This document shows positions 36,417-45,843 of a stretch of 49,524 nt of DNA, piece by piece. This DNA is from Aliarcobacter sp. (GTDB lineage Bacteria > Campylobacterota > Campylobacteria > Campylobacterales > Arcobacteraceae). Where the stretch lies: positions 1 to 49,524 of the forward strand of contig JAGOIF010000007.1 of NCBI GenBank assembly GCA_017995775.1. The letters are read 5' to 3'. The notes below the pieces were generated by a model. That model had not been told where the DNA came from. It searched no databases and saw nothing but the letters and a program-made list of their open reading frames with translations. Both the position numbers and the translations under genes were made by a program. The first letter of the stretch is position 1; each line of letters opens with the position of its first letter.

Positions 36417-38402
36417 ATGCGTTATGATGTATTTATAGTAAATAATGAAAGTAAGGATTTGAAAAGTTTTGGAAAACACTTATCAAGTAATTTAAAAAAT
36501 ATCATTGTAACTCATCTTTCATCAAGTGAAAATGGGCTTTATCAAGATTTAGAATTATGTGATTTACTAATAGTTGATATTGATTTATTAGATCACTTTT
36601 CAAAAATCAAAAACTATTTAAAGGATGATATACACACTATTTTTTTAATAAATAATGAATCTGATTTATTAAAAATAATTGGTATTAATAATTCAAGCAC
36701 TTTACTTAAATCTTCCGATTTGACTAATCTTAAAGAAAAAATAAAAAAACATCTACATATAAATAATGAAATAAAATCTTCAGAAAAAAATAATTTTTCT
36801 GATTCAATAGTAAATAATATTAATTATCCAATTTTTTCTACTGATGGAACTAATATTATTTTTTCAAATGATCATTTCTTTAAATTAACTAATTGTTTTA
36901 CTATTGATGAGTTAAATATTAAATACAAAAATATAAAAGAGATTTTTGCAAAAGAATATGGTTGTTTTACGCAAATGACGCCAAAATGGCTCTCCCAAGA
37001 TGAAATAAAAAATGTTAAAGTATGTATTTTAGATGAAAATCAAAAAAAGAGATTTTTTTCATTACAGAAAATTTCTCTATCTCATAATAATACAAATATA
37101 ATTATTTTAAATGATATAAGCCATGAAGTTGAACATAAACATGAATTATTTAAACTACTTTATACGGATAATTTAACAAAATTCCCAAATAGAACAAAAT
37201 TAATTGAAGATTTACAAAATAAATCAATGCATCTTGAAGCGGTTTGTTTAATAAATATAAATTCTTTTAGAGAAGTAAATGATTTTTTTGGTCATAGGGT
37301 TGGAGATGCTGTCTTAGTTGATGTTGCAAAATTAATAGATAATCATATTAAAAAATTTGATAATTTAAATCTATATAAGTTTCCTGCTGATTCATATTGT
37401 ATAACTAATACAAAAAAATCCAAAGAAGATTTTGTTGAGTTAATTGAAAATATAGTTAAAGATGTATATAAAAAAGTATTTATTTTCGAGCATTATGAAA
37501 TAGATATTAGAATATCAGCAGGAATTTCTTTTTCTGATAAAAATAATAAATTAATAACAGCAGATATTGCATTACAATCTGCAAAGAAAAATAACAAAGA
37601 TTTATTAGTATTTTTTGATGAGCTTGATAAATTTCAAGAATATGAAAATAATATGCATTGGACAAAAAAATTAAAATCTGCGTTTATTAATGACAATATT
37701 GAAGTTTATTTTCAACCTTTAGTAAATAATAGAACTCTAAAAGTTGATAAATACGAGTGTTTAGTAAGACTAATAGATGAAAATGGGAAAGTTATCACTC
37801 CATATTTTTTCTTAGATATTTCAAAAAAATCTAATCAATATACAAAATTAACAAGAATTGTTTTAGAAAAATCATTTAAAAAATTTGAACATCTTTCCTT
37901 TGATTTTTCTATAAATATTTCTTATGAAGATATTCAAACTCCTGATTTTTTAAATTTTATTAAATCTATGTTAAATAAATATAATGTTTCAAATAGAGTT
38001 ATTTTTGAGATATTAGAAGATGAAAATATAAAAAGTTATGAGCTTTTAAAATTATTTATTGATGAAGTAAAATCATTAGGATGTAAAATTGCCATAGATG
38101 ATTTTGGTAGTGGTTATTCAAATTTTGAGCATCTTTTAAAAATGAATATAGATTATCTAAAAATTGATGCTTCTTTAATCAAAAATATTGCAAAAGATGA
38201 GACTTCATATAAAATAACAAAAACTATAATAGAATTTGCCAAAAGTCTGAATTTACAAACTATTGCTGAATTTGTAGAAAATGAAGAAATATTTAAAATA
38301 GTTAGAGAATTAGGTGCTGATTATTCTCAAGGTTATTTTTTCTCAGAACCAATAGCACTTCCAAACGTAAGCGAATTTAACAAAAAGAAAACGAATGAAT
38401 AA
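36417..38402 (+). CDS. c-di-GMP protein: receiver-like, PAS, degenerate GGDEF and EAL (ECL) domains
   Basis: A soluble 661-residue protein. The N-terminus (1-115) resembles a receiver (YDVFIVNNESKD, LLIVDIDLL) with a possible phospho-acceptor D54. A PAS-like region (about 130-240) follows. The GGDEF domain (about 245-400) has YKFPADSY where GGDEF belongs, so it cannot be a cyclase. The EAL domain (about 415-650) has ECL (447-449) in place of EAL but keeps N500, E532, the D561-D562-F-G-S-G motif and K582. Phosphodiesterase activity is therefore plausible. It overlaps the following cyclase gene by eight bases. Confidence 0.85.
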   Translation: MRYDVFIVNNESKDLKSFGKHLSSNLKNIIVTHLSSSENGLYQDLELCDLLIVDIDLLDHFSKIKNYLKDDIHTIFLINNESDLLKIIGINNSSTLLKSSDLTNLKEKIKKHLHINNEIKSSEKNNFSDSIVNNINYPIFSTDGTNIIFSNDHFFKLTNCFTIDELNIKYKNIKEIFAKEYGCFTQMTPKWLSQDEIKNVKVCILDENQKKRFFSLQKISLSHNNTNIIILNDISHEVEHKHELFKLLYTDNLTKFPNRTKLIEDLQNKSMHLEAVCLININSFREVNDFFGHRVGDAVLVDVAKLIDNHIKKFDNLNLYKFPADSYCITNTKKSKEDFVELIENIVKDVYKKVFIFEHYEIDIRISAGISFSDKNNKLITADIALQSAKKNNKDLLVFFDELDKFQEYENNMHWTKKLKSAFINDNIEVYFQPLVNNRTLKVDKYECLVRLIDENGKVITPYFFLDISKKSNQYTKLTRIVLEKSFKKFEHLSFDFSINISYEDIQTPDFLNFIKSMLNKYNVSNRVIFEILEDENIKSYELLKLFIDEVKSLGCKIAIDDFGSGYSNFEHLLKMNIDYLKIDASLIKNIAKDETSYKITKTIIEFAKSLNLQTIAEFVENEEIFKIVRELGADYSQGYFFSEPIALPNVSEFNKKKTNE

Positions 38403-39717
38403 AGAAATTTTAAAAAATATTTCAATTTTATATGTAGAAGATGAAAATGATGTAAGGGAATTTACATCAAAATTATTAAGTTCTTTATTAAAAAAAGTTT
38501 ATTGTGCAAGTAACGGGCAAGAAGGTTTAGAAGTTTATAAACAAAATAAAGATGATATTGATTTGATTATTTCTGATATTAATATGCCAAAAATGGATGG
38601 TCTTACAATGTGTGAGGAAATCAAAAAATTAAATAATGATATTCCTCTTGTAATTACAAGTGCACATAATGATACTAGTTTTTTAAAAAGAGCAATAGAA
38701 GTTGGTGTAAATACGTATGCTTTGAAACCTATTGATCTATATCATTTAATAGAAAGTGTTACAAAAGCGATGGAGCCAATTTTATTAAAAAAACAATTAG
38801 TAGAATTAAACTTATCTCTTGAAACTAAAATAGAGCAAGAAATATCTAAAATAAAATCTATTTTAGATGCTCAAAATAATATTATTATTGTAACAAACAA
38901 AGAAAATATTACAAATGTAAATAAAAAATTCTTGCAGTTTTTTGGAGTTGATGATTTTGAAAGATTTCTAAAAACTAAGAAAAATATCTTTGATTTTTTT
39001 ATAGAAGAATTTGGTTTTATTACAAAAAATCAAATCATAAAACAAGAATCATGGCTTAGATACATAAGAGAATTACCAGAAATTGATAGAATTGTAAAAA
39101 TAAAAAATTACTTACATGAAGAAAAGATTTTTACAATAAATGTAGATTATTATGAAAATAAAGAGCACTATTATGTATTTTCTCTAACAGATATAACTGA
39201 AATAAAAGAAAAATCAAATTTACTAGAATATCAAGCAAGCCATGATAAATTAACAGGTTTATTTAATAGAAATAAATTTGATGAATTATTTATAAAAGAG
39301 ATAAAAAGATCAAAAAGATATAGCGCAAGTTTATCGATTATCCTTTTAGATATTGATAATTTTAAAATGATAAATGATAACTATGGTCATCAAATAGGTG
39401 ATGTAGTTTTAAAAGAAATTTCTCAAATAATATCATTGCATATTAGAGAGCAAGATATTGCTGTTAGATGGGGAGGTGAAGAGTTTTTAGTACTTCTTCC
39501 CCATACAAATTTAAGTGGGTCTATAATAGTTGCAAATAAAATTAAAACTGCCATTGAAACAAACTTATTTACAGATTTAAATCTTAATATAACAGCAAGT
39601 TTTGGTGTAACACAATTAGTTAATGAAGATGATGATGAAAGTTTAATTGCAAGAGCAGATAAACATTTATACGAAGCAAAAAATAGTGGGAAAAACAAAG
39701 TAATAGCTACAAAATAG
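38395..39717 (+). CDS. Response regulator with GGDEF output (diguanylate cyclase)
   Basis: A 440-residue protein. The receiver domain (about 8-130) has acidic residues E15/D16, phospho-acceptor D61 (IISDINMPKMDG), T88/S89 and K111 (YALKPIDLY). A coiled-coil and PAS-like middle (about 130-275) follows. The GGDEF domain has the active-site loop WGGEEFLVLL (359-368) and an intact inhibitory site R351-x2-D354, so it should make c-di-GMP with product inhibition. The start overlaps the end of the EAL gene (ATGAATAA). Cyclase and phosphodiesterase candidates therefore share one transcript. Confidence 0.92.
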   Translation: MNKEILKNISILYVEDENDVREFTSKLLSSLLKKVYCASNGQEGLEVYKQNKDDIDLIISDINMPKMDGLTMCEEIKKLNNDIPLVITSAHNDTSFLKRAIEVGVNTYALKPIDLYHLIESVTKAMEPILLKKQLVELNLSLETKIEQEISKIKSILDAQNNIIIVTNKENITNVNKKFLQFFGVDDFERFLKTKKNIFDFFIEEFGFITKNQIIKQESWLRYIRELPEIDRIVKIKNYLHEEKIFTINVDYYENKEHYYVFSLTDITEIKEKSNLLEYQASHDKLTGLFNRNKFDELFIKEIKRSKRYSASLSIILLDIDNFKMINDNYGHQIGDVVLKEISQIISLHIREQDIAVRWGGEEFLVLLPHTNLSGSIIVANKIKTAIETNLFTDLNLNITASFGVTQLVNEDDDESLIARADKHLYEAKNSGKNKVIATK

Positions 39718-42182: not shown

Positions 42183-44285
42183 ATGCAAAAAAATCTTTTT
42201 ATTTTATTACTTTTAATAACTTCATTAAATGCTAATGAATATAATTTTGATTTAATGGATGATATTTTTGATTTAAATTTAGAACAATTACAACAAATTA
42301 AAGTTGATTCAGCTTCAAAAACTTCACAAGATTTAAATTCAACTCCTGCAAAAATAATTATCATAACAAAAGAACAAATCGAGCAAAGAGGATACAGAGG
42401 ACTTGACGAACTTTTAAATGATCTTCCAGGTATTCAAATATTAAACCACGCAGATAGTGGTATTATGAACCAAGTTGGTATTCGTGGAATTATGGGAAAT
42501 AACTATTTCAAAATCCTTCAAGATGGAATAGAAATTAACCAAACAAATGGTGAAATAATGAGTACGTCAATGCAATATCCTTTATTTGGAGTTGAGCGTG
42601 TTGAGATACTTTATGGTGCAACTTCTGTTATTTATGGTGCTGATGCTATCAGTGGAATTATAAACCTAATAAGTTCAACAAAACCAAACGGACAAGCTGG
42701 AATTTGGGCAGGTGAGCGAGGATATAAATATCTTTATGCAACACAGTCTTTAAAATTAAATGATGGATTATTTTCCTATAAAGCCCATTTTCACACCGAT
42801 CAAGATTATAATTTTGATAAAGAGTATCCAAGTGATTATTTAGGAAAGACATCACATGATTTCCAACCTCAAAAAACAAAATCATTTAATGTAAGATATC
42901 AAAAAGATGGTTTTGATATGGGAATGAATTATAAATATTTTTCAGAATCAGCATTAATCGCAATGAATGGTAAAAATTCTCTTTTAAATGCTTTCGATAA
43001 AGATGCAAATTTAAATAGCGAACTTTTTAGCACTTTTCTTAGATATAAAGCAACTTTATTTAATGACATAGAAGCCACAACTACATTAAAATATCAATCA
43101 ACTGAACTTTTAAAAGATAGTTATTTTAGAAATATTTATACTTCTTATGAACCAGGTTATAAATACTCAAAATCTCAAAGATATGCAATTGAAGAGACAT
43201 TAAACAAAACCTATGAAAATCACAACTTAACATTTGGAAGTTCCGTTGAATGGTTAAATTCTATTCCAATGACTTATGATTTGCCAAAAAAATCTTTATC
43301 AAATGTTTATATTAATGGTTCAAACAAAGAAATAGAAGCACCAATATATGATATAAATTGGAACAACATAGCTTTTTATTTACAAGATCAAATTACTTTA
43401 AATGAAAATTTTCAACTCTCACTTGCAGGACGTTATGATAAAAATTCATCTTATGAATCAAGTTTTAATCCTCGTTTAGCATTAATTTATACAAAAGATT
43501 CATTAAGCCAAAAACTAATTTATTCTCAGGCATTTTTAGCTCCATCAAACTATAATAAATATAAAATTTATGGAACAAAACTAGAAGCAAATACATTAGC
43601 TGATGGAAATAAATATCAAACAGATACTTTTAGAGTTGCAAATCCTGATTTAAAACCTGAAAAAAGTAGAAGTTATGAATATAATCTTGATTATTTATTG
43701 AGTAAAAATGATTTGATATCTTTTAGTGTTTATTACACAGAAATTGAAGATTTAATTTTGATAGAAGAAAAAATACCTGAACAAACTTATTTCTTAGCAA
43801 ATACTACTATTTTAGATCCAAGAGGTGCAAAAAATGCTGCAAACTCTTATATCTATGGAAGTGACATTTCATATAATAAACATTCGTATTTTTCAGGATA
43901 TGATTTAAATTACTGGATTAATTATAGTTTTGTTGATGGACAAATTGATTATGAATACGACTATGATTTACCTTTTTTGGCTCACAATACATTCAAAGCA
44001 GGAACTACTTTAAAATATAAAAAATTCACTGTTTCTCCATCAATTAGATGGATGAGTCCGGTTACTGCTTCATACTATAAAAATAATGAACTAGCAAAGG
44101 TTGACAGTTATTTTATAAGTAATATTTATGGTAGTTATTCTTTAGATAAAAAACAAAAAATTTCTTTGAAAATTGACAACTTATTTAATGAACACTACTA
44201 TGGTGTTAGATACAATACTTCTTCAAAATATGTATCACCACAAAACACAAGAATGGTATCTTTTGCGTATACCATCAATTTTTAG
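42183..44285 (+). CDS. TonB-dependent outer-membrane receptor
   Basis: A 700-residue outer-membrane barrel with a signal peptide (MQKNLFILLLLITSLNANE). The plug domain has ITKEQIEQRGYRGLDELLND and VGIRGIMGN, then VERVEILYGATSVIYGADAISG. The C-terminus ends with FAYTINF, an aromatic terminal residue as expected for barrel insertion. YSLDKKQKISLKIDNLFNEHYY-like sequence is typical of the last strands. The substrate (siderophore, vitamin B12 or heme) cannot be read. AGGA precedes the ATG. The YfiR-like/cyclase gene follows seven bases later, which suggests that uptake and c-di-GMP signalling are linked. Confidence 0.92.
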   Translation: MQKNLFILLLLITSLNANEYNFDLMDDIFDLNLEQLQQIKVDSASKTSQDLNSTPAKIIIITKEQIEQRGYRGLDELLNDLPGIQILNHADSGIMNQVGIRGIMGNNYFKILQDGIEINQTNGEIMSTSMQYPLFGVERVEILYGATSVIYGADAISGIINLISSTKPNGQAGIWAGERGYKYLYATQSLKLNDGLFSYKAHFHTDQDYNFDKEYPSDYLGKTSHDFQPQKTKSFNVRYQKDGFDMGMNYKYFSESALIAMNGKNSLLNAFDKDANLNSELFSTFLRYKATLFNDIEATTTLKYQSTELLKDSYFRNIYTSYEPGYKYSKSQRYAIEETLNKTYENHNLTFGSSVEWLNSIPMTYDLPKKSLSNVYINGSNKEIEAPIYDINWNNIAFYLQDQITLNENFQLSLAGRYDKNSSYESSFNPRLALIYTKDSLSQKLIYSQAFLAPSNYNKYKIYGTKLEANTLADGNKYQTDTFRVANPDLKPEKSRSYEYNLDYLLSKNDLISFSVYYTEIEDLILIEEKIPEQTYFLANTTILDPRGAKNAANSYIYGSDISYNKHSYFSGYDLNYWINYSFVDGQIDYEYDYDLPFLAHNTFKAGTTLKYKKFTVSPSIRWMSPVTASYYKNNELAKVDSYFISNIYGSYSLDKKQKISLKIDNLFNEHYYGVRYNTSSKYVSPQNTRMVSFAYTINF

Positions 44286-44292
44286 GAAAAAT

Positions 44293-45843
44293 ATGAAATT
44301 TTTTATTTATATAATTACTCTTTTTTTAATTATTAATAATACTATGCATGCTCAAGAAACAAAAGAAGAGCAAGTAAAAGTTGCTTATGTATATAATTTT
44401 TTACAAAATATATCTTGGCAAAATGAAAATAAAATAGGTAAATACCGTCTATTGGTAGCTTCAAAAAATGAAACTTTAAAAAATATGTTTTTAATGTTAG
44501 CTTCAAGAAAACAGCTAAAAAATAAAAATTTAGAAGTTTTGATTTATGATGAAAATAAAAACTATAAAAATATTCAAGCTATTTATATTGGAACTTCTTT
44601 TGATGAAATATATGAGAAAGTATTTTTTGAATATGAAAAAGAGAATACTTTATTTATCAGTGATGGATATGAAGATAAAAAACAAGTGATGATAAATCTA
44701 ATAAAAGATGAAACAAAAATCACTTTTGAAATAAACAAAGCAAATATTTTAAATCGTTCATTGGAAATCTCTCCAAATCTTATACTTTTAGGCGGAACAG
44801 AAATTGATGTTGCAAAACTTTATAAAACTTCGCAAGATGCATTAAAAGAGCAAAAAGAGACTATTAGTTCTTTAAATCAGAAAATTGAAACTAAAAATAC
44901 AGAGCTTAATTCAAAAATAAGTTCAATTGAAGAACAAAAAATACTTATTACAAAACAAACTAAAAATATTAAAAATTATGAAGATAAACTAGATACACAA
45001 ACCCAATTACTTGAAGTGCAAAAAAGACAATTAGAAGAACAGAAAAAAGAATTAAATACTATATATTCAACAATTAAACAAGAAAAAGAAAAACTTTCAA
45101 ATGCAGTTTTAGAAGCTAATGAAAAAGAAAGAATGCTTAAATCTTTGGTAAATTTACAAATAGATAAACAAAAAGAGTTTGAAAATGCAAAGATTAAATT
45201 AGAACATTTAAATTCGCAAATAGAAGAAGAGAAAAATAACTTATTAATAAAAGAAAGTATTATTGCTGATCAAAAAAATAAAATTTTAATATTTGGAGCT
45301 CTTTTTATAATAATTTTAATTTTGGGCATAAATGGTATAAGACAGAATCTTCTTTTAAAAAATCTATCTCAAATAGACACATTAAGTGGTTTATATAATA
45401 GAAGATTTATGAACAAAAAAATAGAAGAAGAAATTAGTAAATACAAGCGATATAAAATTCCTTTTTCTGTACTTTTAATCGATGTGGATTTCTTTAAAAA
45501 AATAAATGATACATATGGGCATGATAAAGGAGATTTTGTAATTAAAAGAATATCAAATTTATTAAAGCAAAATATAAGAGATAGTGATATTTGTGCAAGA
45601 TGGGGTGGAGAAGAATTCTTAATATTAGTTCCTAATAATAATTTAGATGGAGCATTAATTCTTGCAAATAATCTAAAAGAATTAATTGAAAAAAATAACT
45701 TTGAAATTAAAGAAAATGTAACTATAAGTATTGGAGTTTCAACTTTTGATGAAAATTCAAGTCAAGAAAAACTATTAAAATCGGCTGATATTGCACTTTA
45801 TAAAGCTAAAGAAAATGGGAGAAATAGAACTGAGTTCATCTAA
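44293..45843 (+). CDS. YfiR-like periplasmic domain fused to coiled coil, TM helix and GGDEF cyclase
   Basis: I chose ATG at 44293, preceded by AGGAAAA; an earlier in-frame ATG lies inside the TonB receptor gene. The 516-residue protein has a signal-like start (residues 1-20). A periplasmic DUF4154/YfiR-like domain (about 25-175, with KVAYVYNFLQNISWQ and ISPNLILLGG) follows, then a long coiled coil (about 180-325). A membrane helix (about 330-350) precedes the GGDEF domain, with inhibitory site R429-x2-D432 and GGEEF at 438-442. YfiR normally is a separate periplasmic inhibitor of the cyclase YfiN. Here sensor and enzyme are one chain. Confidence 0.88.
   Translation: MKFFIYIITLFLIINNTMHAQETKEEQVKVAYVYNFLQNISWQNENKIGKYRLLVASKNETLKNMFLMLASRKQLKNKNLEVLIYDENKNYKNIQAIYIGTSFDEIYEKVFFEYEKENTLFISDGYEDKKQVMINLIKDETKITFEINKANILNRSLEISPNLILLGGTEIDVAKLYKTSQDALKEQKETISSLNQKIETKNTELNSKISSIEEQKILITKQTKNIKNYEDKLDTQTQLLEVQKRQLEEQKKELNTIYSTIKQEKEKLSNAVLEANEKERMLKSLVNLQIDKQKEFENAKIKLEHLNSQIEEEKNNLLIKESIIADQKNKILIFGALFIIILILGINGIRQNLLLKNLSQIDTLSGLYNRRFMNKKIEEEISKYKRYKIPFSVLLIDVDFFKKINDTYGHDKGDFVIKRISNLLKQNIRDSDICARWGGEEFLILVPNNNLDGALILANNLKELIEKNNFEIKENVTISIGVSTFDENSSQEKLLKSADIALYKAKENGRNRTEFI

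Follow-up and report, generated by a model that had tools for sequence, protein, structure and literature searches.

Introduction

In FecA/FecR surface signalling a TonB-dependent receptor signals to an inner-membrane protein via its periplasmic N-terminus. The YfiBNR system of Pseudomonas aeruginosa (YfiR and YfiN in E. coli) consists of the outer-membrane lipoprotein YfiB with its OmpA-like domain, the separate protein YfiR and YfiN, which has a periplasmic PAS domain and a HAMP domain. In the descriptions given by PMC4655355 and PMC3375315 YfiB is the presumed sensor and YfiR the bridging repressor; Pseudomonas YfiR is described to bind YfiB by strand pairing and to possess conserved cysteine pairs (PMC4655355). 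Yfi outputs are reported to be modular and swapped, with many divergent systems without YfiB (PMC3375315), and the word “TonB” is absent from the main text of the latter paper. Here we analyse a gene pair in a stretch of 49,524 nucleotides from Aliarcobacter sp. (assembly GCA_017995775.1, contig JAGOIF010000007.1; the whole stretch is referred to as the window), in which the gene of a TonB-dependent receptor is followed by a gene for a single protein joining a YfiR-like domain (the head), a coiled coil (the rod), one membrane helix and a GGDEF domain. The latter is termed the rod protein.

According to the comparison with related loci a coupling of the receptor and the YfiR domain is well supported as a prediction. 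The reading that we favour, at about even odds, is a two-protein relay from the outer membrane to the cytoplasm, the receptor N-terminus acting on the head and the rod passing a change of register to the cyclase. In such a relay the receptor would bind its ligand outside, and its periplasmic N-terminal stretch would change its exposure or position and thereby engage or release the head. The head would sit on a parallel coiled coil of ~21-25 nm anchored in the inner membrane and may thus be placed close to the outer membrane. The rod would respond to a change in the head by a shift of register, upon which the cytoplasmic GGDEF pair would alter its output of cyclic di-GMP (c-di-GMP), with feedback on the cyclase at its inhibitory site (I-site). 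The original prediction for this locus, in which ligand uptake or receptor occupancy is reported to the c-di-GMP level, is partly supported overall: it stands with regard to the coupling, while the contact of receptor and head, the control by a ligand, be it through uptake or occupancy, and the sign of the response are inferred.

Domain structure of the receptor and the rod protein

The following features were assigned to the gene pair:

42183..44285, + strand: TonB-dependent receptor of 700 amino acids with plug and barrel (Pfam PF07715, 75.6 bits; PF00593, 115 bits)
42234..42332, + strand: receptor stretch between signal peptide and plug (~residues 18-50), exceeding in length that of most unlinked receptors and proposed as contact segment on the basis of a length comparison
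44286..44292, + strand: seven-base junction; in the sequence the AGG of the likely ribosome site starts within the receptor stop codon
44293..45843, + strand: YfiR-like/coiled-coil/membrane helix/GGDEF protein of 516 amino acids (open reading frame and profile matches)
44293..44352, + strand: signal peptide (~residues 1-20; hydrophobic N-terminus, by eye)
44371..44790, + strand: YfiR-like domain, DUF4154 (78.3 and 75.6 bits in two scans; fold match to YfiR)
44818..45282, + strand: periplasmic coiled-coil rod (~residues 176-330; hydrophobic period 3.50 and no Pro or Gly at residues 178-331; whole-heptad steps in relatives)
45283..45339, + strand: single membrane helix (~residues 331-349; hydropathy 2.82)
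45370..45828, + strand: GGDEF domain (166.5 and 162.5 bits in two scans)
45577..45618, + strand: I-site RDSD and active-site GGEEF, RDSDICARWGGEEF

The predicted order of receptor gene, seven bases and one-chain YfiR-like/coil/membrane helix/GGDEF protein was confirmed by the open reading frames and the Pfam profiles. The second gene starts with the ATG at 44293, and the likely ribosome site spans the receptor stop codon (junction letters TAGGAAAAATATG). DUF4154 (YfiR/HmsC-like, PF13689) matched residues 27-166 of the rod protein with 75.6 bits at a cut-off of 24.9, and the YfiR-like assignment also held in the fold search. The AlphaFold2 model of this part reached a mean predicted local distance difference test (pLDDT) of 87.6, and its top 15 PDB matches were all YfiR chains, alone or with YfiB (template modelling (TM) score 0.62-0.66 by query length).

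The GGDEF profile (PF00990) matched residues 360-512 with 162.5 bits, above its cut-off. As predicted, the GGEEF is intact and preceded at a distance of five residues by an intact RDSD, which we take to be the I-site pattern. Based on the GGEEF and the profile score the rod protein is a predicted c-di-GMP cyclase. It is the sole DUF4154 match of its genome, in which 9 receptor-barrel and 32 GGDEF matches were found. The coiled coil is present, its predicted length of ~145 residues being slightly short, since 155 residues lie between the LYK motif and the membrane helix. In the whole-chain model (mean pLDDT 82.9, predicted TM score (pTM) 0.38) a helix at residues 173-310 is followed by a low-confidence break at 311-325 and a helix at 326-360 that passes through the membrane. 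Judged from its sequence the rod protein presumably forms a dimer with the topology outlined above. A plasmid search with the whole rod protein (E <= 1e-30) yielded 18 records, of which none covered as much as 80 per cent of the query, and the matches listed are to its GGDEF part.

Comparison with described systems

The locus departs from YfiBNR proper in each of the three features tested. The YfiR domain and GGDEF are joined in one open reading frame instead of forming separate proteins, the rod protein has a coil and no PAS or HAMP match (E <= 0.001) where YfiN has both domains, and the YfiR part lacks cysteine in contrast to the cysteine pairs of YfiR in YfiBNR. Furthermore, the TonB receptor takes the place of the lipoprotein YfiB, which was not seen among the genes adjacent to the pair, the genome itself not having been searched for it. 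The original prediction had rightly described YfiR as a repressor in YfiBNR, whereas its description of YfiR as the sensor did not hold, as YfiB is the presumed sensor according to PMC4655355 and PMC3375315. Redox sensing, which the same two papers report for Pseudomonas YfiR, would need YfiR cysteines and leave the receptor incidental. It was rejected as hardly conceivable here because neither the YfiR part of the window protein nor those of nine other GGDEF fusions checked contain cysteine.

The proposed relay resembles FecA/FecR in that the receptor would signal to the inner membrane via its N-terminus. FecA-type systems comprise an STN domain, FecR and a sigma factor, whereas the window receptor has no STN domain in the Pfam profile search (three control receptors do carry one) and is partnered by a YfiR-coil-cyclase protein. 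With RcsF of the E. coli Rcs system the proposed relay shares an outer-membrane protein reporting across the periplasm in a reach-dependent manner, as described in PMC5736177; the lipoprotein RcsF has a flexible linker, in contrast to the heptad-phased rod rising from the inner membrane in the window.

Two NCBIfam models, the YfiR-like TOL_0243 and the TonB receptor TOL_0244 of Thalassolituus, bear consecutive locus numbers, which suggest the same receptor/YfiR neighbourhood. TOL_0243 was the best-scoring YfiR-type NCBIfam model for the window protein, reaching 49 bits at a cut-off of 125, and TOL_0244 gave 80.4 bits for the window receptor at a cut-off of 645, both scores thus staying far below the cut-offs. 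Six other YfiR proteins of this study scored higher with the TOL_0243 model than with the YfiR-proper model, one of them reaching the cut-off. Unlike the window protein the TOL_0243 model spans 150 positions, without rod or output. TOL_0244 is reported to be sevenfold up on a long-chain alkane (PMC6304351).

Receptor genes beside DUF4154 genes

The expected conservation of the gene pair was found within the genus: of 31 genomes 6 have a receptor orthologue (E <= 1e-60), these same 6 have a cyclase orthologue and 25 have neither, so that all genomes with either gene have both. Receptor and cyclase genes of these pairs are separated by 6-8 bases, and the TAGG at the junction is common to the window and its five relatives.

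More widely, DUF4154 was detected in 12 of 104 genomes of the family scan and 34 of 397 of the phylum scan, giving 57 distinct places, 54 of them with a receptor in the cluster. These genomes are related and the places not independent. Of the 56 places outside the window 55 were processed by a script, and in 51 a receptor lies no more than 2 kb from the YfiR gene (within 200 bases in 43, on the opposite strand in 5); the window, L024 and L081 complete the 54. At L024 the YfiR gene is cut by the contig end and the receptor in the cluster has a Pfam Plug score of 60.6 bits, and L081 has a partial receptor at the contig end. One of the three places without a counted receptor (L104) is cut by a contig end. 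A home-made profile served to call the receptors; among the matches listed for 16 genomes the Pfam Plug model recovered at least 27 of 28 linked receptors. The chance of a receptor next door is ~0.7 per cent, assuming 2400 genes and ~8 receptors per genome, a value derived from the 16 genomes after exclusion of the one genome that has 58 receptors.

Nine genomes outside the phylum, chosen for their fusions of a YfiR domain with an output domain and reached via these loci, contain 34 DUF4154 places, 25 of them new. A receptor lies within 500 bases at 20 of the new places and at 2.4 kb at one; at four, one of them near a contig end, none was found in the stretch examined. As for the nine fusion loci themselves, a receptor is located 39 to 228 bases upstream in three and within ~2.1 kb in four, and the stretch examined contained none in the remaining two. 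Receptor-adjacent fusions were also found in Sulfuricurvum records.

Another operon type with a separate YfiR was observed at L020-L023, L061 and L066, which encode a receiver/GGDEF/EAL protein, YfiR, a histidine kinase and a TonB receptor.

Correlated divergence and exchange of outputs

Distances between YfiR domains correlate with those between the associated receptors with r = 0.92 over 42 pairs and 0.81 for the pairs with a YfiR identity below 55 per cent, the best of 2000 permutations reaching 0.17. Among ten copies in multi-copy genomes three have the identical nearest locus for the receptor and the YfiR part; the rest mostly have nearest loci judged to be one clade, and one (L076) is without a near relative.

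The fusions occur in Campylobacterota, Bacteroidetes, Verrucomicrobia and Proteobacteria. In one fusion (G303) a SpoIIE domain replaces GGDEF, with both the YfiR head and the receptor nearest to Aliarcobacter pairs, which suggests an exchange of the output while receptor and head were kept. Other fusions end in histidine kinases or hybrid kinases. YfiR-coil-membrane-SpoIIE phosphatase proteins were also noted at L112:4962-6875, L113:4953-6965 and L221:4320-6419, the first two with a receptor directly upstream and the third with none found nearby.

The gene pairing and the correlated divergence would fit a shared ligand equally well, and the distance correlation cannot separate the two readings. 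If the receptor imports a ligand which the head then binds like a small periplasmic binding protein, no contact between receptor and head would be required. The next structural match of the head model after YfiR, a substrate-binding protein of Rhodothermus marinus (TM score ~0.45), is in line with such cargo sensing. However, the long phase-conserved rod and the extra stretch of the receptor would be left without clear use, and YfiR is known to act through protein contact (as described in PMC4655355 and PMC3375315). Although it is the main rival to the relay, we consider cargo sensing rather unlikely.

Rod length in heptads

The rods were measured between the L of LYK (or LYR) and the Q preceding the membrane helix. 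In 22 of 23 fusions this distance is 137, 144, 151, 158, 165, 193 or 207 residues, i.e. 4 modulo 7; L121 (139 residues) is the exception, and the window protein has 151 residues. The rule holds across four output kinds. The Q was picked as anchor after a first measure based on the helix start, which places 19 of 20 rods within one residue of whole heptads. Two proteins (L108, L117) were excluded due to a contig or frame cut, and the counts are not independent, many of the rod proteins being related. The patterns that led to L105-L121 include the IDVA-LYK motif, whose conservation in this set is therefore partly due to selection; G112, L219, L220 and L221 were found with the Pfam profile. Since the rods differ by whole heptads, head and membrane helix keep their phase relative to each other, which is what a signal in the form of a register change would lead one to expect.

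Measured from LYK to the helix, rods of 140 to 167 residues would extend over 20.8-24.8 nm and the one of 213 residues over 31.6 nm. In wild-type E. coli 30-32 nm between the membranes were reported under the conditions of that study (PMC8824477). With the calculated reach the head could lie near the outer membrane, which is no proof of this position. The rod protein might alternatively sense the envelope itself (its width, peptidoglycan or stress), the receptor being a co-inherited neighbour or merely a required part. Trans-envelope signalling by RcsF depends on the size of the periplasm (as described in PMC5736177) and the length classes of the rods differ among lineages, both of which would fit. 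Yet the receptor stays as partner where output and gene order change, with 54 of the 57 places having a receptor against two without, which makes envelope sensing improbable.

The pre-plug stretch of the receptor

The length between the end of the hydrophobic core of the signal peptide and the plug is 33-47 residues (median 38) in all 43 receptors linked to strong DUF4154 matches. Among 44 unlinked receptors without STN (47 less three with STN; biased to high Plug scores) 38 have fewer than 33 residues and 6 have 33 or more, with a median of 26; the cut at 33 was chosen after the values had been seen. The difference is significant (Mann-Whitney p = 4e-10, kinship uncorrected). The comparison leaves out two linked receptors whose N-termini are cut, one partial second-type receptor and one late-start control. 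In six other receptors of the window genome the stretch is shorter or different, and a TonB-box-like stretch was recognised by eye in the window receptor.

The length measure took the place of a motif search, which was dropped as too loose: the motif matched 37 of 43 strong-linked and 9 of 16 weak-linked receptors as well as 7 of 47 controls, the latter because it includes residues beside the ordinary TonB box.

The weakly matching DUF4154 genes (L085-L103) represent a second type, which likewise lies beside TonB receptors and is mostly followed by a GGDEF gene; they were counted for adjacency and excluded from the distance comparison. The median pre-plug length of their receptors is 30, compared to 38 in the strong-linked receptors and 26 in the controls. 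These receptors share another pre-plug sequence; a pattern for it, written after the sequences had been seen, matched 13 of the 16 linked ones and none of 47 controls.

Evaluation of the proposed relay

Several observations speak against a relay by direct contact. The conservation of the pre-plug stretch exceeds that of the barrel only slightly (0.56 vs 0.50 over 116 linked pairs; 0.49 vs 0.47 over 26 control pairs), so that the case for a contact rests on the presence of the stretch and not on strong conservation, and a long stretch is missing from the receptors linked to weakly matching DUF4154 genes. Two places, L088 and L092, have no adjacent receptor, the nearest at L088 being ~5.6 kb off. 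The rods range from 137 to 207 residues and hence do not have a single fixed reach, and the whole-chain model (pTM 0.38) shows a low-confidence break near the membrane. Finally, the correlated divergence would also be expected if the head senses the cargo of the receptor.

It seems quite possible, as a tentative generalisation of the relay, that TonB receptors in several phyla directly drive a class of inner-membrane signalling rods. These would carry a YfiR head on a periplasm-crossing coil of heptad-quantised length, followed by one membrane helix and an output that can be exchanged, be it a c-di-GMP cyclase, a histidine kinase or a SpoIIE phosphatase. The contact of receptor and head, the control by a ligand, the position of the head and the sign of the response would be parts of this proposal.

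Genomic surroundings of the gene pair

The pair is flanked by a divergent gene of an S4-domain protein upstream and by argG downstream (both named by eye). In the genus argG is present in 30 of 31 genomes, 24 of which are without the pair. The S4 gene adjoins argG at a distance of ~67 to 550 bases in 15 of these 24, and in the other 9 no S4 gene was found in the stretch examined. A search for remnants of the pair at five pair-less sites gave window matches with E < 1e-3 at the two flanks and nowhere else. The pair is also absent from the genome whose argG is closest (98 per cent); here the S4 gene and argG are ~550 bases apart, with no clear remnant of the pair (L173:951-1500). Another genome of the genus (G030) has 58 Plug-domain matches in 2.4 Mb, whereas 3 to 13 were found per genome in the other 15 covered by that search.

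A GGDEF-EAL protein and a receiver/PAS/GGDEF protein are encoded at 36417-39717 of the window with an overlap of a few bases, ~2.5 kb upstream of the receptor, and GGDEF/EAL genes occupy the same place in L014, L015, L016 and L018. Including the cyclase of the pair, the window has three c-di-GMP genes within 10 kb. No Rfam family reached its threshold anywhere in the window.

Novelty and significance

The link between YfiR and TonB receptors is anticipated by the NCBIfam names, and modular Yfi outputs have been published. The open-access literature searched contained no description of a receptor-coupled, heptad-phased rod. As far as this literature shows, the wide pairing rule, the one-chain heptad-quantised rod with varied outputs and the extra stretch of the receptor are new.

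The control of the many diguanylate cyclases of a bacterium and the input to Yfi-like systems without YfiB are open questions. With a receptor tied by gene pairing to a one-chain rod, signalling across the envelope comes down to two proteins and a ligand has a clear point of entry, and the heptad rule offers a simple physical test. If the proposal is true, receptor-driven surface signalling would exist in a second form besides FecA/FecR, and the input at the outer membrane that many Yfi-like systems without YfiB are missing would be accounted for. Some outer-membrane receptors taken for transporters may then also, or mainly, be sensors.

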